A stretch of 64,000 nucleotides of DNA from a virus. Under the pieces are notes generated by a model. The model was not told the DNA's origin, searched no databases, and saw only the letters and a list, made by a program, of their open reading frames with translations. Made by a program: the position numbers and the translations under genes. The number at the start of each line of letters is the position of its first letter. Positions within the stretch are counted from its first letter, which is position 1. The DNA lies in the IMG/VR virus record IMGVR_UViG_3300045303_000182, positions 45,847-109,846 of that record; one strand, 5' to 3'. Below are positions 42,098-62,794 of the stretch, piece by piece.

Positions 42098-42201
42098 ATC
42101 TCCTCCATGATAGCTGATTCCAGCAAGCTAGCGGTTGACAACGTTACGGTTGTGTGACGCTAGGGTGGTGCGACCCTCCCTTACCTACCAAGGAGATAAG
42201 C

Positions 42202-42795
42202 GTGATACCTCGACTACTGCTCATTGCTTCACTGTGCCTCTGCGGAGGTGGTGGCATCCAGATCGACACCTCGGCCCCAGCGGCGCTCGCTGCACCCGCC
42301 CAGGTGGTGGTGGAGCCGCCTCCCGCGCCGCCGAGCTCAACGGTAGTGGTCGAAGCGATCAACGACCCCGCAGTGGCACCCATCGCTGAACCGTTCGTGC
42401 CTGCTGTGCGCCTTTCTCCACCGATCCAGGTCGCTCCGACGCTGCCGCCGCCGCCCTCCGGGATATGGGGCCTGCCGTTCGCTCCCGAGGGCCTGAGCAA
42501 CTGCGACGAGATGTCGTTCTACCGGCAGCAGTTCGGCCTGCCGGCGCGCTTCGACGGCATCGGCTGGCGTGAGTCAAACTGCAGGAACGAGGACGGCGTC
42601 CACACGTCGTGCTGCTGGGGCTACTGGCAGCTTCACCAGATGCACCTGGGCGGCGAGGTCTACGCGCGCAACTGCGATGTCCACTCGTACCGCGACGTGA
42701 ACAGCGACAACCCGCTGGAGAAGCAGAAGCAGGCGTGCGCCGCCAAGCAGTTGTACGACGCTGCAGGCACCTCGCCCTGGGCAGCCACGCGGTAG
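42202..42795 (+). CDS. Secreted lysozyme-like protein
   Basis: A 197-residue protein with an N-terminal export segment (MIPRLLLIASLCLCGGGG), a Pro/Val-rich linker (~30-85), and a C-terminal domain resembling SLT/lysozyme folds: FYRQQFGLPARFDGIGWRES, with Glu in WRESNCRNE as the probable acid, and CCWGYWQLH. Six further Cys residues suggest disulphides. The GTG at 42202 is preferred, with AAGGAG just upstream; the longer frame has no ribosome site. It could be a peptidoglycan hydrolase acting outside the membrane, in lysis or surface remodelling. No holin is seen. Confidence 0.6.
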   Translation: MIPRLLLIASLCLCGGGGIQIDTSAPAALAAPAQVVVEPPPAPPSSTVVVEAINDPAVAPIAEPFVPAVRLSPPIQVAPTLPPPPSGIWGLPFAPEGLSNCDEMSFYRQQFGLPARFDGIGWRESNCRNEDGVHTSCCWGYWQLHQMHLGGEVYARNCDVHSYRDVNSDNPLEKQKQACAAKQLYDAAGTSPWAATR

Positions 42796-45798: not shown

Positions 45799-46275
45799 TC
45801 AGGAATCCTCCTCAGCCTGAGCCTCTTCCAGCGCGCGTCGCAGAGCGAGCCGCTCCTCCTCCTCTTCGTGCTCGGCCATCCAGTCCTTGAGCCTCTGGAG
45901 GTTCGCCGGGGTCAGCGGGCCTGCTGGGAAAGCGAGATCAAGCTGATCGAAGGCGAGCACAGGGAACCACGCCCAATCTCTCCCTTCCCATACCCCGATA
46001 CGGTGCGCGGCCTGGTCGTACTTGAGCGTGCCCACCTCGAGGAGCTCAAAGATCCGCAGTGCCTCCTGGATCTCGCGCGACCGATGAGGCTTCATCTCGA
46101 TGTAGTACTTGCCGTCCACGAAGTGGACCGGGAAGCCCTCGGGTTGGCCGAGGGCACCACCGAACTGCTGGGGACTCAGGTGGGGGCTGCGGTGGAGCGC
46201 GGCGCGGTCGCCGCGCTCCCGTAGCTCATCCATCGTCGCCTTGGGGATCTCAACCCAGGACGGATCAACGGTCAT
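45799..46275 (-). CDS. Hypothetical protein
   Basis: A 158-residue protein (PKATMDELRERGDRAALHRS, FVDGKYYIEMKPHRSREIQE) with an acidic coiled-coil C terminus (EHEEEEERLALRRALEEAQA). ATGA overlap with the LPxTG gene. A TACCCCGATA palindrome lies inside the gene. Unknown family. Confidence 0.45.
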   Translation of the reverse strand: MTVDPSWVEIPKATMDELRERGDRAALHRSPHLSPQQFGGALGQPEGFPVHFVDGKYYIEMKPHRSREIQEALRIFELLEVGTLKYDQAAHRIGVWEGRDWAWFPVLAFDQLDLAFPAGPLTPANLQRLKDWMAEHEEEEERLALRRALEEAQAEEDS

Positions 46276-47744
46276 GCCCGCCGGCGCTTCCTCCCTACCG
46301 AGAAGAGGGCGAGGCCCGAGCCGAGGGCGAGGGCAGCAATAGCGAGGTAGGTGCCGCTGTTGCTTCCGGTGGGTGGCAGTCCCTCGGGCGGGGGCGTGAC
46401 CCCTGGCGGGAACGGCCCGTTCGGATTAGCGCAAGTTGCGCTCTCCGGTGGGTAGGTGACGAAGGCCGTAGCCGTCGGGTTGACCGTGTAGGTCAGGTTG
46501 ATGCCGGCGCGGAGGAACTCGTCGCTGGGGTCGCGGATCCAGAAACCATCGCTGGTGAGGATCCAGCCAGGCACGTCAGCGATGGTTCCATCGCTGTTCA
46601 CGGTGGTACCTGGGTACAGCAAGTCCACGGTCGTGCCGGGGGCGTAGACCAGCGGTTGGGTCGAGACGACGTTGCCGTTGATGTCCGACATCGTCAGCGT
46701 CCCAGTGCGACCGGCCAACTCGGGGAACGTGTTCTGGAAGACGATCCTGATCGTCGGAACCTCAGCCACGCAGACTGTCGCCGCGGCTCCGAACGTGAAC
46801 GGTGGGGCTGGCACCGTCGTGGTAGTGGTCCCAGGGATCGTAGGCCCAGTCGTGGTGGTCCCAGGGATGGTGGTGGTGGTCGTTGTGGATGGCGAGGTCG
46901 TCGTCGTCGGCCCAGTCGTAGACGTGGGTGGCACCGTCGTCGTCGTCGGCGGGAGCGTCGTGGTCGTCGGCGGGAGCGTGGTCGTCGTCGTCGTTGATGT
47001 CGTCACCGCCGTGGTCGTAGTGGTAGGTGGGCAGTTCGGTGGGAAGGTCACGGAGGCCGTTGCTGTCTCCGGGCCGAGCGAGTAGATCAGGTTCACGTTC
47101 TGCGTCGTGTTGGGGTAGGCGATCGTCACCGTCTGGTTCGACTGGAAGGTCAGGAACACCGACCCGCCCGTGCTGAACGACAGCACTCCGACCTGACCGT
47201 TGAGGTCAGGCCGATCACCGAAGGTGATCGAGATCTCGGGCAGGAAGTCGGGACCGCAGAAGGCGAACACGTTGACCGCGAACAGGCTCGGCTTCGGAGG
47301 CTGGGTCGTGCTCGTCGTGCTTGTGGATGACGTTGTGGAAGTTGTGGATGACGTACTGGTCGAGGTTGTGGAACTCGAGGTCGTCGTCGTCGGCTTCATC
47401 GTGGTCGTCGTGGTCGGGTACGGCTTGTGGGTCGTCGTGGTCGCTGGCAACGTCGTCGTCGGAGCAACGGTCGTGGTCGTCGTCGGGTAGGTGTGCGGCG
47501 GCTTCTCCGTCGTGGTCGTGTCGTGCTTGTACGTCGTCGTCGTCTCGTACGGCTTGTGGGTGGTGGTCGTCACCTCCCGCGGCTCCGTCGTGGCAGTGGT
47601 CGTCGTGTAGTTCTGCGTCTCGACCTGCACGACTTGCTCGACCGGGGCTTCATCGGGCGGCTGCGGCGACTCTTCGGCCATCACTGCAGGCACTCCACAT
47701 GCCGCTAACACCAGGAGGCCCAGTAGCCCCAGTCGCCTGATCAT
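46272..47744 (-). CDS. Thr-rich LPxTG surface protein
   Basis: A 490-residue exported protein. N terminus: signal peptide MIRRLGLLGLLVLAACG with an apparent lipobox LAAC (Cys16). Residues ~45-150 and ~230-305 are mucin-like Thr/Pro runs (TTTTTVAPTTTLP). Between and after them are two similar beta domains (FAFCGPDFLPEISITF; CVAEVPTIRIVFQN). C terminus: LPPTGS (456-461), a hydrophobic segment, and RKRRRA, a classic sortase anchor. GGGGAG precedes the ATG. It would be displayed on the infected host, possibly glycosylated; superinfection exclusion or surface masking are possible roles (inference). Confidence 0.75.
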   Translation of the reverse strand: MIRRLGLLGLLVLAACGVPAVMAEESPQPPDEAPVEQVVQVETQNYTTTTATTEPREVTTTTHKPYETTTTYKHDTTTTEKPPHTYPTTTTTVAPTTTLPATTTTHKPYPTTTTTMKPTTTTSSSTTSTSTSSTTSTTSSTSTTSTTQPPKPSLFAVNVFAFCGPDFLPEISITFGDRPDLNGQVGVLSFSTGGSVFLTFQSNQTVTIAYPNTTQNVNLIYSLGPETATASVTFPPNCPPTTTTTAVTTSTTTTTTLPPTTTTLPPTTTTVPPTSTTGPTTTTSPSTTTTTTIPGTTTTGPTIPGTTTTTVPAPPFTFGAAATVCVAEVPTIRIVFQNTFPELAGRTGTLTMSDINGNVVSTQPLVYAPGTTVDLLYPGTTVNSDGTIADVPGWILTSDGFWIRDPSDEFLRAGINLTYTVNPTATAFVTYPPESATCANPNGPFPPGVTPPPEGLPPTGSNSGTYLAIAALALGSGLALFSVGRKRRRA

Positions 47745-50166: not shown

Positions 50167-50601
50167 ATGAGACGCCCCCTGCTGCTCGCCGTTGCGGCCC
50201 TGCTCCTGGCCGGTTGCGACCTCGACTACCCCGCCCTCGGCCTCTACCGCGATGTCACCCCCGGAGGCCAGGAGCAGATCGACCAAGGCTTCGTTGTCGA
50301 TGTCATCACCCCCGTCGATCTCCCCGGCATCTGGCTCGCCGCCCATCGCTCCAGCCACGGCTCGAGTTTCGCCAACCTCGTCAATGCCCGCGTCGGTGAC
50401 CAACTGACCTACGGCGGTGTCAACTACGTCGTCGTCCGCACCGCCATCGTCAACGATGCCTGGACCCCGCGTTACCTCGGCCCTCTCGTCCTGCAGACCT
50501 CCTTGCCGGGAGACGACAACCTCCTCGTCATCTGCGAACCGGCCGGCGCACCACCCCCCGGCACCGCAACCGCCTCCCTCCGCGCCGTCCGACTCCCGTG
50601 A
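50167..50601 (+). CDS. Sortase-like lipoprotein with Ser at the Cys position
   Basis: A 144-residue protein. N terminus: lipoprotein signal with LLAGC (Cys17). Residues ~38-125 follow the sortase fold plan: IDQGFVVDV, GIWLAAHRSSHGSSF (His60 in the catalytic AAHR position, like GHR), GDQLTYGGVNYVVV, then LVLQTSLPGDDN where sortases have TLxTC. Here the catalytic Cys position is Ser112, and the downstream Arg position is Asn118. It may be inactive, redirected to another chemistry, or a binding decoy. An LPxTG protein lies 2.4 kb away. Sortase fold is inference from motifs; only one domain is present. Confidence 0.55.
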   Translation: MRRPLLLAVAALLLAGCDLDYPALGLYRDVTPGGQEQIDQGFVVDVITPVDLPGIWLAAHRSSHGSSFANLVNARVGDQLTYGGVNYVVVRTAIVNDAWTPRYLGPLVLQTSLPGDDNLLVICEPAGAPPPGTATASLRAVRLP

Positions 50602-50693
50602 GGCCCGAAGAGCGCCACGACCTCTACGTCCTGATCATCGGCCTGGTGCTGACGATCGCCCTCGGAGCCGCCGCAGCCCGCTGGATCCCTTAG
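50598..50693 (+). CDS. Very small membrane protein
   Basis: A 31-residue protein (ERHDLYVLIIGLVLTIALGA) with a single transmembrane helix. GTG start overlaps the sortase-like stop (GTGA). Probably a partner of the sortase-like lipoprotein. Confidence limited by length. Confidence 0.4.
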   Translation: MRPEERHDLYVLIIGLVLTIALGAAAARWIP

Positions 50694-51585: not shown

Positions 51586-51678
51586 ATGAGCACTCAGTAC
51601 GCATGGGACACGGCGCTAACGCCATGGGCCGAGCATGGGCTGACCATGGGCCGAACGAGTACGGTCGTGGGATGTTGA
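51586..51678 (+). CDS. Possible leader peptide of the methyltransferase
   Basis: A 30-residue frame (MSTQYAWDTALTPWAEHGLT...). Its stop TGA overlaps the methyltransferase ATG at 51672 closely (ATGTTGA), so it could couple translation to the enzyme. It has no ribosome site. Evidence is weak. Confidence 0.25.
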   Translation: MSTQYAWDTALTPWAEHGLTMGRTSTVVGC

Positions 51679-52814
51679 CGGTGGACCTCTTCGGAGGCGC
51701 AGGTGGTGCAGCCCTTGGGCTGGAGAGGCTTGGACTCAGGCCGTGGTCGTACGAGATCGTGGGGGACTGTGTTCAGACTCTGCGCCGAGCCGGTCACCGC
51801 GCCGTGCAGTGCGACCTGAGCACGTACGCATGGGACGAGGGGTGGCGTGGTGAGGTTGGGGTGCTGCATGGGTCGCCGCCTTGCCAGCCGTGGAGCGCGA
51901 GCGGATCGGGCCGTGGTGCTGCTGACCCACGCGATGGCATGCCGCACATGCTGCGAGCGGTGGAGGCGTTGGAGCCGTGGCTGGTGACCGTGGAGAACGT
52001 GGAGGGGCTGACGTACGCCAAGCACCGGCCGTACCTCGACTGGTTCGTGGAGTCGCTGCGAGCGCTGCGCTACATCGTGGAGTGGCGGGTGCTCAACACG
52101 GCCAACTACGGGGTGCCGCAGACGCGCAAGCGGCTCATCATCGTGGGGCGCATCGGTGGCAGTGTGCGATGGCCCGCACCGACGCACGCCAAGCAGAACG
52201 CCGGCAACGCGCGGACGTGGAAGCCAGGCGACCCCGACGTGCTGCCGCCCGTACTGCTGCCGTGGGTGAGCATGGCCGAGGCGCTCGGTTGGGGGATGAC
52301 CACGAAGCCGATGCTGACGATCGCCTCGGCGCGGACGACCGGTGGCCCTGATGCCCAGGGCGTCGGCGGTAGCCGTGCTCGGGCGGTCCTCGAGGCCGAG
52401 CTAGTCGCCGGTCGGTGGGTGCTGAACACGGGCAACGATTGGAAGCCGGGACAGGATCGGCGCACCGCGCAGAAGCGCTCGCTGCTACGACCGGCACCGA
52501 GTCTCACTGGCAAGTCGGGCGGGCACTGGGTGCTCGACCGACCAGCGACCACGGTGCAGAACGACACACGCGTGCACCCGCCTGGACACCGAGCGAACGC
52601 CGACTACGACGGCCACCCACGGCGCGGCCCGGACGCGTACCGGCTGAGCGTGGCCGAGCTAGCGCGGCTGCAGGACTTCCCCGACGGCTACCCGTTCGTT
52701 GGCACGAAGACGAGCCAGGTGAGGCAGATCGGCAACGCCCTCCCGGCCACCCTGCTGCAGGCGGTAGTGGGAGCGAACCTGTGGCCCCCGCATTGGCCCG
52801 TAGAAGAGCCGTAG
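51672..52814 (+). CDS. Orphan C5 cytosine DNA methyltransferase
   Basis: A ~380-residue enzyme that methylates cytosine C5 in DNA using S-adenosylmethionine. Motif I VDLFGGAGGAALGLERLG, motif IV GSPPCQPW with catalytic Cys71, motif VI VENVEG, motif VIII RKRLIIVGR, and IX/X RLQDFPDGYPF and IGNALP are all present in order. The start is set at the ATG nearest to motif I (51672); the frame extends 23 codons upstream. No restriction enzyme lies nearby, so an anti-restriction role is likely. It sits between the hairpin block and a TATCGGCATA site. Confidence 0.85.
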   Translation: MLTVDLFGGAGGAALGLERLGLRPWSYEIVGDCVQTLRRAGHRAVQCDLSTYAWDEGWRGEVGVLHGSPPCQPWSASGSGRGAADPRDGMPHMLRAVEALEPWLVTVENVEGLTYAKHRPYLDWFVESLRALRYIVEWRVLNTANYGVPQTRKRLIIVGRIGGSVRWPAPTHAKQNAGNARTWKPGDPDVLPPVLLPWVSMAEALGWGMTTKPMLTIASARTTGGPDAQGVGGSRARAVLEAELVAGRWVLNTGNDWKPGQDRRTAQKRSLLRPAPSLTGKSGGHWVLDRPATTVQNDTRVHPPGHRANADYDGHPRRGPDAYRLSVAELARLQDFPDGYPFVGTKTSQVRQIGNALPATLLQAVVGANLWPPHWPVEEP

Positions 52815-58856: not shown

Positions 58857-60131
58857 TCAGGCTCGGTGGGCAGCCTCGGCCGCAGCCTGCCGCAACTCTT
58901 CGTTGAGCAGGATGATGATCGACCGATCCTCAATGATCGACTCCACGATCGGCCGCTCGTTCGGGCCGAACATGCTCGTCAGCACGTTGAGGCCGACGAC
59001 CGGGCCGAACGTCGCCACGTTGCGCTCGCAGCGCTGCAGGGCGGCGGTGCCGACCGGGGTGCGGACGCTGTTGCGCTCGCGGGCCGTGCGGAGCGCGTCG
59101 CCCAGCAGGCGGATCGCCGCCGACTTGATCAGCTTCGTCTCCACGTCGCCGTTGTAGCCCCAGCAGACGTGCTCAAAGCGGTTGACGAACGCCTCGTTCT
59201 GCTTGCCCATGCCGACGTAGCCCTCGTTCAGCGTGCCGATGACCCACAGGTCGAGCGACGCCTGAGTGACCTCGGCCATGAACTGGCCCTTGTTGAACAC
59301 GGCCTTGTTGCGGTTGACGAACAGGTGCCGGTGGTCGATCAGCGGGTGCAGCGACGACGTGACGCGCGGGTCGAGCGCGTTGACCTCGTCCAGGTACAGG
59401 ATGCCGCCGACCTGCGCCGCCAACTCGACCATGCCGGGGAGCCAGACGAGCGACTCGACGCCCGTCGCCGGGTCGGTGTAGCTCGTCGTCTGGCCGAACA
59501 GGTCGAAGTCGGTGACGCCCGACGAGCCGCTGATCGTGAAGATCGGCATCGGCTTCGGCAGGCCGAGGCGCTCGGCCCACACGATGGCGAGCACTTCGAC
59601 CAGCATGGTCTTGCCCGACTGTGTGTCACCCTTCAACAGGACCGAGGCGGGGCGACCGGCGTTGTTGCTGTCGGCCCGGTACGGGTCGCTGGTGAAGGCG
59701 AGCAGGAAGTCGATGTCGGTCAGACCGGGGGCGACCTCGCGGCCGATGTACTGGCGGAACTTCCGCTTGCTCGGACGCAGGTGGTCGAGCCGCTGGTCCA
59801 TCGGATCGGTGATCGGGTCGAGGATGCGGGCGACCTGCGCCACGGTGGCGACGGCGACCTGCTCGGTGGCGACCAGCGTGGCGACGGGAGCCGTCAGCAC
59901 CGGAGCCGGTGCGGGAGTGGCGACCCCGGCGATGCCGACGGGAACGTCCTTCAACTGACGGGGGAGGATGTAGTAGTGCGTGCCCTCAGGCGTCTCGACC
60001 AGCACCTTGCGCTGGTTCGGCTCGCCGTCGGCGACGGGCTTGCTGTCGAGGATGGTGACGACCTCTCCGGCGAAGTCGCCGTCCTTGATTTCGTACTGCC
60101 ATCCGGTGAGGAGTGCTGCTGCTGTTGCCAT
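58857..60131 (-). CDS. MoxR/CobS-like AAA+ ATPase
   Basis: A 424-residue AAA+ protein. An N-terminal beta domain (residues 1-65, KDGDFAGEVVTILDSKPVAD) is followed by the AAA+ core: Walker A LKGDTQSGKTMLVEVLA (~166), TISGSSGVTDFDLFGQ, Walker B GILYLDEVNALDP (~242), sensor-1 region WVIGTLNEGYVGMG, and an arginine-finger-like FVNRFEHV. This is the CobS/MoxR pattern. It pairs with the divergent CobT-like VWA protein. Family members act as chelatases or as chaperones that assemble or disassemble protein complexes; here the target is unknown. Shared-type promoter at 60175-60202. Confidence 0.8.
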   Translation of the reverse strand: MATAAALLTGWQYEIKDGDFAGEVVTILDSKPVADGEPNQRKVLVETPEGTHYYILPRQLKDVPVGIAGVATPAPAPVLTAPVATLVATEQVAVATVAQVARILDPITDPMDQRLDHLRPSKRKFRQYIGREVAPGLTDIDFLLAFTSDPYRADSNNAGRPASVLLKGDTQSGKTMLVEVLAIVWAERLGLPKPMPIFTISGSSGVTDFDLFGQTTSYTDPATGVESLVWLPGMVELAAQVGGILYLDEVNALDPRVTSSLHPLIDHRHLFVNRNKAVFNKGQFMAEVTQASLDLWVIGTLNEGYVGMGKQNEAFVNRFEHVCWGYNGDVETKLIKSAAIRLLGDALRTARERNSVRTPVGTAALQRCERNVATFGPVVGLNVLTSMFGPNERPIVESIIEDRSIIILLNEELRQAAAEAAHRA

Positions 60132-60460: not shown

Positions 60461-62794
60461 ATGACCACGCCACCTACCACCGTCGGGGGAAAGCCTCCGA
60501 AGAAGGCGCGGAAGAAAGTCACGACCGACCTCGGTCGTCAACTTCTCACCCGCGAACGTCAGCGCCTCAGCCGTGAGCAGGCTGCTCTTGCCGAGCAGCA
60601 GCTTCTGGAAGCCGAGCGCGCCCGGACCCAGCAGAAGCGCAACGTCAAGTCGGCCAAGCCGCTCGACATCGCTGTCAGCCGGTCGATCGTCAAGCGCTTC
60701 GCAGGCGTCCTCGCCTCCGAGGGTGTCAGCGTCCGCATCAGCGCCACGCCGAGCACCACGACCAGCGCCTGGACCGACTTCGAACAGATCGTCATCAACT
60801 ACGTGCAGCAGGACGACGACCGCGTGCTCGCCGCCACCATGCGCGGCCTGGCGTACCACGAAGGTGGTCACTGCCGGTTCACCCTCCCGTTCATCCAGCT
60901 TGCCGAGGCCGCGGGCCAGCCCGCCGACACGAAGCTGCACCGGGCGTGGAACTGCCTGGAAGATCAGCGGATGGAGACGGCCGTCGTGTCGGACTCGCCG
61001 CGCAAGGCTGCGTATCTCACGCCGATGATCATGCTCGACTTCGTTCCTACGGTGAACCACGCCGCCGCCAACTGGCCGCTGCTGGTCTGGCGTCGGTACC
61101 TCCCGACGCACATCCGCAAGGGCGCTCGCAAGCTGTTCGTCCACCAGCACAACCTGATGGGCCTCGACGGCGAGGCGCTCGCCAAGTCGATCGAAGCCGT
61201 CACCACGAAGTACGTGCTGGCCGACAACGCCGTGACCATGTGGGAAGCGGTTGTCGAGTACGCCGCGCTGCTCCAACAGACCGCTCCGTTCGCTGCGAAC
61301 GTCGATGACAACGCCATGGGCCACCAGCGCCAGTACAAGCGCTCCGAGCGCAACCTGGACGACTTCCTGGTCATCCCGGTCGAGGGCGGCATGGTTGACG
61401 AGGGTGCCGACGAGGCAGCCGACGAGGCCGACGAGTCCGACACGATCGACACGGTCGAGGGGTTCCAGCACTTCCTCGACATCCTGTTCGCGCTGCTCAA
61501 CGGCCAGGACATCCTGCCCCCGGTCATCTACGCCTCCAAGGGCGAGGGTGAGCAGGGCGAGGGCGCTGGCTCCCCGTCCGACGAGGCGCAGCCGCACGGC
61601 GACGCTGCCGACGAGGGCGACGACGAGGGCGACGAGTCCGACGACGATGCCGAGGCCGAGGGCGACGAGTCCGAGGGCGGCAAGGGCAAGGGCAAGGCTT
61701 CCGACGACGACACCGAGGGTGCCGACGACGACGAGGCCGAGGCTGGCTCCAACGGCTCCAACGACGACGACGACGACGACGACGAGGCTGACGCCACGGC
61801 GACGGGCGGCGACGACGACGGCCTGGACTTCGCCAACGAGCCTGCCGACGACGAGCAGGACGAGCAGGGCGGCGCGAGCGGCGAGCACAAGAACACTGGC
61901 GTGCGCGACGACCTCGACTACAAGAACGACGACGACCTGACCGACGAGGCGCTCCAAGAGGCGATCGATGAGGCTGCTGCCGCTCGCGACAGCGACCCGA
62001 CGCTCGACGGCGACGTGCAGTCGCTCCACGATGCGATCAACAACCGCACCAGCGACCTGCTGCCGTACAACGCAGGCGTCAGCCAGGACATCGCCGCCGA
62101 GGCGACGGGCCGCAACCTGGCCGACGACATCGAGCAGGCGTTCCGCGAGAACACGATCGACAAGGCTCCGGGCTGGGTCGAGGGTCAGCGTCGTGGCATC
62201 GTCAACGTGCTGCGCTACGAGACGCGTCGCCCCGGCGACGTGGAGTTCTTCCGCCAGTACACCGAGACGGACGCCCCCGGCCAGAACATCGCCGTGTCGG
62301 TCCTGCTCGACTACAGCGGTTCCATGGGCGGCGCGACGCTGGAACTGGCTCAGGCCGGTTACGCCACGAAGCTGGCTTGCCAGGCGCTCGACATCCCCTG
62401 CACCGTGACCCTGTGGGACACGCAGGCGACGGTGCTCTACGACGCCACCGAAGAGGCCGACCGCCTCCCGGTGATCGTCTCGGCCGGTGGCACCGACATC
62501 ACGGTGGCGGTGGCCGACCTCGACAAGCAGCGCTACGAGAAGGACATCCACATCGTCATCATCATGACCGACGGTGCGTGGTCCGGGGCGTGCGGCCAGA
62601 ACGGCTTCCTCGCTTCCTACAAGGGCGACGAGGGCCGGTACTTCATCGGCCTCGGCTACAACAGCGGCTGGGGCGACTCCGGTCCGGGGATGGCCGAGAA
62701 CCTGCGCCGCTACGGGTGCGACGAGGCCCACGGCATCGCCTCCCTGATGGAGATTCCCCGCTACTTGGAGCAGGCGCTGGTCGCCTTCTCCTGA
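60461..62794 (+). CDS. CobT-like VWA protein with HExxH motif
   Basis: A 777-residue protein. Residues ~1-60 are basic and helical. HEGGH (133-137) with NCLEDQRMETAVV after it is the CobT/VWA-associated HExxH plus LEDxR element. Residues ~320-510 are strongly acidic Asp/Glu/Gly repeats. The C-terminal VWA domain has MIDAS DYSGSMGG (Asp617), a Thr in GGTDITVAV and TDGAW (Asp704). With the divergent AAA+ ATPase it makes a CobS-CobT-like pair. In the cobaltochelatase the acidic part and MIDAS touch the ATPase; a metal-loading or remodelling complex is the likely form. No CobN partner is seen. Terminator at 62811-62841. Confidence 0.8.
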   Translation: MTTPPTTVGGKPPKKARKKVTTDLGRQLLTRERQRLSREQAALAEQQLLEAERARTQQKRNVKSAKPLDIAVSRSIVKRFAGVLASEGVSVRISATPSTTTSAWTDFEQIVINYVQQDDDRVLAATMRGLAYHEGGHCRFTLPFIQLAEAAGQPADTKLHRAWNCLEDQRMETAVVSDSPRKAAYLTPMIMLDFVPTVNHAAANWPLLVWRRYLPTHIRKGARKLFVHQHNLMGLDGEALAKSIEAVTTKYVLADNAVTMWEAVVEYAALLQQTAPFAANVDDNAMGHQRQYKRSERNLDDFLVIPVEGGMVDEGADEAADEADESDTIDTVEGFQHFLDILFALLNGQDILPPVIYASKGEGEQGEGAGSPSDEAQPHGDAADEGDDEGDESDDDAEAEGDESEGGKGKGKASDDDTEGADDDEAEAGSNGSNDDDDDDDEADATATGGDDDGLDFANEPADDEQDEQGGASGEHKNTGVRDDLDYKNDDDLTDEALQEAIDEAAAARDSDPTLDGDVQSLHDAINNRTSDLLPYNAGVSQDIAAEATGRNLADDIEQAFRENTIDKAPGWVEGQRRGIVNVLRYETRRPGDVEFFRQYTETDAPGQNIAVSVLLDYSGSMGGATLELAQAGYATKLACQALDIPCTVTLWDTQATVLYDATEEADRLPVIVSAGGTDITVAVADLDKQRYEKDIHIVIIMTDGAWSGACGQNGFLASYKGDEGRYFIGLGYNSGWGDSGPGMAENLRRYGCDEAHGIASLMEIPRYLEQALVAFS

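Follow-up and report, generated by a model that had tools for sequence, protein, structure and literature searches.

A phage lipoprotein from a family with a predicted sortase fold and serine at the catalytic cysteine position

A soil-type bacteriophage encodes a small lipoprotein, P0001, that belongs to a viral family with a predicted sortase β-barrel and with serine fixed at the position at which sortases carry their catalytic cysteine. Sortases are bacterial enzymes that fasten proteins to the cell wall; they are defined by this cysteine and have become drug targets and tools for protein ligation. To our knowledge, every sortase carries a reactive cysteine at the nucleophile position. Our computations establish the fold, the family, the fixed Ser, His and Gln residues, the lipobox and, in relatives, the coupling of the gene to that of an LPxAG surface protein, whereas the binding of a sorting signal, the absence of transpeptidation and the benefit to the phage are inferred. 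We read P0001 as a phage-encoded, membrane-anchored pseudosortase that binds a sorting signal, a functional inference to which we assign a probability of roughly one-half.

The window, that is, the whole stretch of DNA analysed, comprises 64,000 nt (positions 45,847–109,846 of the roughly 110-kb record IMGVR_UViG_3300045303_000182). The terminase of this record shares 46–47% identity with those of the Streptomyces Borockvirus-type phages BRock, LuckySocke and GiJojo, and is also close to many IMG/VR contigs. Because of the resemblance to the Streptomyces phage terminases, the host is probably an actinobacterium, an inference drawn from sequence; kinship by terminase could not be demonstrated for the contigs that carry other members of the family. 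The P0001 gene (50167–50601, + strand) encodes 144 residues and begins with a lipoprotein signal peptide (50167–50217, +) whose lipobox, LLAGC, includes Cys17. P0001 scores above the cut-off of the Pfam model LPAM_1 (PF08139, E = 5.8e-5), so a feature of bacterial lipoproteins is present. A first-pass annotation of the sequence had described just such a reading frame and signal, and had located His60 in LAAHRSSHG, Ser112 in LVLQTS and Asn118; all of these proved correct. PF04203 matches the 110-kb record at the P0001 locus only, with no second sortase. Overlapping the P0001 stop codon, a GTG within a GTGA could start a possible 31-residue transmembrane peptide (50598–50693, +), visible in the sequence only; a short transmembrane protein (L225) also lies about 0.2 kb downstream of the corresponding gene of the family member L213.

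Elsewhere in the window, the reading frame at 51603–52814 (+) encodes a DNA cytosine methyltransferase with the motifs DLFGGAGG and PCQPWS, and that at 42154–42795 (+) a secreted protein that carries a signal peptide and, in the stretch WRESNCR...CCWGYWQLH, resembles lytic transglycosylases; it has no Pfam or PHROG match. A MoxR-like AAA ATPase (58857–60131, −) and a von Willebrand-type/CobT-like protein (60461–62794, +) are encoded divergently, a pair kept in two other viral contigs (L128 and L129).

Taken alone, P0001 gives only a borderline sortase signal. Its E-values were 0.06 for PF04203, 0.042 for the class E model and 0.094 for TIGR01076; the PF04203 score of 13.9 bits lies under the curated cut-off of 26.6, and the class E model, NF033747, gives 13.7 bits where its cut-off is 160. 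Single-query searches returned no homologue from viral contigs, phages, plasmids, 48 related virus records or the open reading frames of related phages. The sole match among the genome contigs (L125) runs antisense to a long open reading frame and was dismissed as an artefact rather than a gene match, and a match to CBM_5_12 (E = 0.015) covers 26 residues of P0001 and is shared by no other family member. The single-sequence AF2 model was poor (pLDDT 42) and the fold search made with it meaningless; both were discarded.

The family was found by a degenerate DNA scan of IMG/VR viral contigs for A[AG]HRxxHGxxF, the region around the catalytic histidine, with the catalytic site left unconstrained. 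The scan gave 56 matches, several of them clear relatives of P0001 (phmmer, 3e-31 to 1e-6) that also match a hidden Markov model of 12 real sortases from plasmids and phage contigs. It was unbiased towards serine, because the C-terminal half was unconstrained and a true Cys sortase (L221, TLTTCWPKYGSAKR) was recovered as well. A second scan, using the family alignment, added one member (L226); two sequences from a scan for QT[S/C]xPG (L233 and L234) were judged not to be relatives. The resulting family is small, with eight distinct viral members (P0001, L213, L184, L226, L222, L178, L193 and L176) that are 28–50% identical to P0001, and a lipobox is present in four of them (P0001, L213, L184 and L226). 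In a phylogenetic tree, all the Ser-bearing members form one clade (support 98/97) in which L176 branches deepest, which makes a single origin the simplest reading; the class of this clade within the sortases is unresolved, and the viral Cys sortases fall outside it. The dN/dS values are about 0.16 for L184/L226, about 0.43 for P0001/L213 and 0.5–0.6 for other pairs. These figures are rough, with dS near saturation for the two named pairs; they suggest that the proteins are maintained by purifying selection and are not decaying.

At the level of the family, the kinship with sortases is clear. PF04203 is matched by all eight members (best 2.1e-12), and the family profile, compared with solved structures, gave 39 matches at E ≤ 1, nearly all of them sortases, the best being SrtE1 of Streptomyces coelicolor (5cuw, class E; E = 1.2e-10). 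Alignment of the family with 13 true sortases by hhalign yielded a probability of 98.7% (E = 3.7e-16), and the best match among the local sortases that we had collected was a Streptomyces class E enzyme. An AF2 model based on the family-only alignment (pLDDT 76.9, pTM 0.72) has its strands ordered as in sortases. Foldseek returned 67 PDB matches to this model at E ≤ 0.001 (best E = 1.6e-6, probability 1.00; TM 0.57–0.71), and sortases accounted for 50 of 50 among the matches listed. A fold search had been set beforehand as the check that could refute a sortase-like identity, and it returned sortases. The borderline single-sequence scores and the useless single-sequence model might have been taken to mean a chance resemblance in a short lipoprotein without a sortase fold; the profile, structure and fold-search results for the family contradict this, and we regard it as scarcely tenable. 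By prediction, then, the P0001 family has a sortase β-barrel fold. The name sortase is nevertheless unsuitable for P0001 because it lacks both the Cys and the Arg, two defining features, and we refer to it as a sortase-fold variant.

The substitutions centre on the catalytic site. In the hhalign register, Ser112 (codon TCC, 50500–50502, +) lies over the catalytic Cys and Asn118 (50518–50520, +) over the catalytic Arg; in the AF2 model, the former is at the end of β7 and the latter at the start of β8. The nucleophile position is occupied by Ser in 8/8 family members and by Cys in 13/13 true sortases, which confirms the expectation that homologues would keep the serine, and the corresponding codon is TCN throughout. 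The serine stands in an LxxQTS context, except in L176, which has QCS, with a Cys preceding the Ser. His60 (50344–50346, +) aligns with the catalytic His that follows β4 in sortases and is invariant both in the family and in the 13 true sortases. Further residues invariant across the family include Arg61, His64, Gly65, Phe68 and Gln110. The last of these (50494–50496, +) lies two residues before Ser112 in β7, a position at which none of the 13 true sortases used has Gln; their residues there are T, S, V, L or I. The Arg site in β8 reads N, E, R, R, F, F, F and S/R across the eight members: Arg is absent from P0001, L213, L178, L222 and L193; L184 and L226 retain it, and the assignment in L176 is ambiguous. 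The first-pass annotation was therefore right that Asn replaces Arg in P0001, but the replacement is not a fixed feature of the family. In SrtE1, this Arg contacts the substrate (PMC5148588). Separately, a Cys-bearing sortase from a Thermomicrobium roseum plasmid (L168), with the C terminus YSDNLLVF, has Asn where the catalytic Arg would be expected; loss of the Arg may thus occur beyond the viral clade.

If the register had been misread, P0001 could be an ordinary sortase with Cys123, in LLVICEP, as the true catalytic Cys of a TLxTCxP motif. The TIGR01076 match reached residue 125, one BLAST alignment used this same register, and the spacing from His to Cys would be typical. Yet L213, L178, L222 and L193 lack this Cys, and by both hhalign and the strand order of the AF2 model the nucleophile site falls on Ser112, with Cys123 lying within β8. 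We reject Cys123 as the catalytic residue on these grounds, and an ordinary sortase is accordingly very improbable.

A candidate partner is encoded in the same window. The 490-residue protein at 46272–47744 (−), a putative partner or substrate, has an N-terminal lipobox, TTTT-rich linkers and two conserved domains, and ends in a C-terminal sorting signal (46275–46379, −) composed of LPPTG, a transmembrane segment and the positively charged tail RKRRRA. All three elements are present on inspection of the sequence, and the matches to Gram_pos_anchor (PF00746; E = 0.0029, score 18 against a cut-off of 20) and TIGR01167 (15.7 against 15.9) fall slightly below threshold. The lipobox of this protein reads LAACG, and that of its homologue in L100 reads LTACG; because it precedes a C-terminal LPPTG signal, the protein may be anchored at both ends. 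Homologues of the partner are present in seven other records.

In two of the related phages (L226 and L184/L227), the Ser-sortase gene directly follows the partner homologue, which ends in LPPAG, a transmembrane segment and RR, and the GTG start of the former lies within a GTGA overlap at the stop codon of the latter. Computed from sequence, the genes for the Ser-sortase and the LPxAG surface protein are thus translationally coupled in these phages, which strengthens the link that the first-pass annotation had drawn to an LPxTG protein 2.4 kb away. In the window itself, the two genes are 2.4 kb apart on opposite strands and are not adjacent; in L230, they are 6 kb apart and the motif is IPATG. 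Three related phages, G012 (118 kb), G010 and G017, have partner homologues that stop one residue after LPPT, ending in LPPTA, LPPTR and LPPTL (L087:8443–10269, −; L093:13193–15277, +; L099:3747–5804, −). No membrane segment follows the stop in any frame, and no Ser-sortase was found in these three phages by profile search. That LPPTx recurs as the C terminus of this protein in three phages seems to be more than chance. A 24.5-kb record (G018) has LPHTG with a transmembrane segment and no Ser-sortase in that piece. The partner is thus anchored in 4/4 records with a Ser-sortase, and the anchor is missing from 3/4 of those without; the numbers are small, and most of the records may be fragments. 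No partner homologue was detected in the contigs of L213, L176 and L193, which are possibly fragments as well.

These observations can be assembled into a proposed function. P0001 would be a sortase β-barrel, nearest to class E and trimmed to about 110 residues, anchored to the outer surface of the host membrane through lipidated Cys17. The peptide-binding groove would be retained and the catalytic site rebuilt, with Ser for Cys, Gln for a groove residue and the Arg lost in most members. Most likely, although this is inferred, the groove would bind the LPxTG/LPxAG sorting signal of the surface protein co-encoded by the phage, at the membrane. The pseudosortase might then hold, protect or present the bound signal, and any covalent anchoring would be left to host sortases. 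We favour a non-catalytic binder because the Arg is lost and because the C184S substitution lowers the activity of Staphylococcus aureus SrtA, as cited in PMC4827206. Several findings weigh against this reading. A plain binder need not keep the exact Ser and His in every member, a pattern that fits catalysis better; the β8 Arg persists in L184 and L226 and perhaps in L176; the pair in the window is not adjacent, and three members lack a partner homologue in their contigs; and eight sequences are few.

Since Ser is strictly conserved together with His, an active serine enzyme stays possible, although we hold this only tentatively. Ser112 and His60, aided by Gln110 or by Arg where present, would attack the LPxTG/LPxAG signal of the partner, with an ester in place of the thioester intermediate, followed by hydrolysis or transfer; by way of this acyl-ester on Ser112, the phage could anchor or release its own co-translated surface protein. 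The two residues are fixed in 8/8 members, the invariable TCN codon is a single base from the TGN of Cys, and the two members that retain Arg are both coupled to an LPPAG-bearing, substrate-like protein. Ser/Cys exchanges are also known among other protease folds. We know, however, of no acyl-ester serine chemistry in the sortase superfamily and found no natural example in the open literature searched; the lack of Arg in five members, P0001 included, and the impairment of SrtA by C184S speak against it too. Less likely again is a decoy or inhibitor directed at the host, which would bind host LPxTG/LAxTG proteins or compete with the class E sortase and so alter the surface of the infected cell, for instance as a barrier to superinfection. 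The lipid anchor would locate P0001 where host sortases act, its closest solved relative is an actinobacterial housekeeping class E enzyme, and for several members the contig shows no homologue of the partner. On the other hand, the fact that two genomes couple its translation to that of a phage LPxAG gene indicates a partner of the phage's own, as does the unanchored state of the partner in the three relatives without a Ser-sortase. The sorting-signal-binding pseudosortase remains our preferred reading.

Because the Ser is fixed and the gene is coupled to that of a surface protein with a sorting signal in two phages, phages seem, as judged from their sequences, to have repurposed the sortase. 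A viral clade with a fixed, selected Ser and a sorting-signal partner would mean either that the sortase fold supports a second chemistry or that phages use a disarmed sortase to control display on the infected cell; it also suggests surface-display systems encoded by the phages themselves. In the open literature that we searched, with subscription papers outside its scope, there was no natural Ser sortase, no 'pseudosortase', no comparable phage family and no relevant paper on a phage sortase. A generic sortase query, limited in sensitivity, matched only 3 of 50,697 phage records, all of them unverified contigs.

Among known systems, class E sortases (SrtE1, 5cuw; PF04203, NF033747) share with the Ser family the barrel, the AGHRxxHGxPF motif around the catalytic His, a membrane tether and a link to LPxTG-type proteins, and they provide its best match among solved structures. 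The Ser family differs from them in having Ser for Cys, Gln at position −2, an unconserved Arg, shorter β6/β7 and β7/β8 regions and, in four members, a lipid anchor instead of a transmembrane helix, and in being viral. Viral Cys sortases (L221; MT836272, MT836627 and MT835683) likewise place a sortase domain on a viral contig; unlike the Ser family, they keep TLxTC and Arg, and they lie outside its clade. The first of these (L221:562–1875, +), on a 39-kb viral contig, directly follows a gene for an LPETG surface protein, the two forming an intact sortase–substrate pair. The other three, together with MT836157, come from unannotated phage records from human faeces and are ordinary Cys sortases, which may belong to phages or to contaminating host DNA. 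Serine chemistry is paired with a C-terminal sorting signal in the rhombosortase/GlyGly-CTERM system, which has a rhomboid fold unrelated to that of sortase. A likeness of role only, the fold being that of a signal peptidase and not of a sortase, links P0001 to SipA of Streptococcus pyogenes, a pseudoenzyme with a peptide-binding groove that is encoded with sortase-substrate surface proteins, is required non-catalytically for assembly and has been proposed to hold, protect or present the pilin (PMC4049620).
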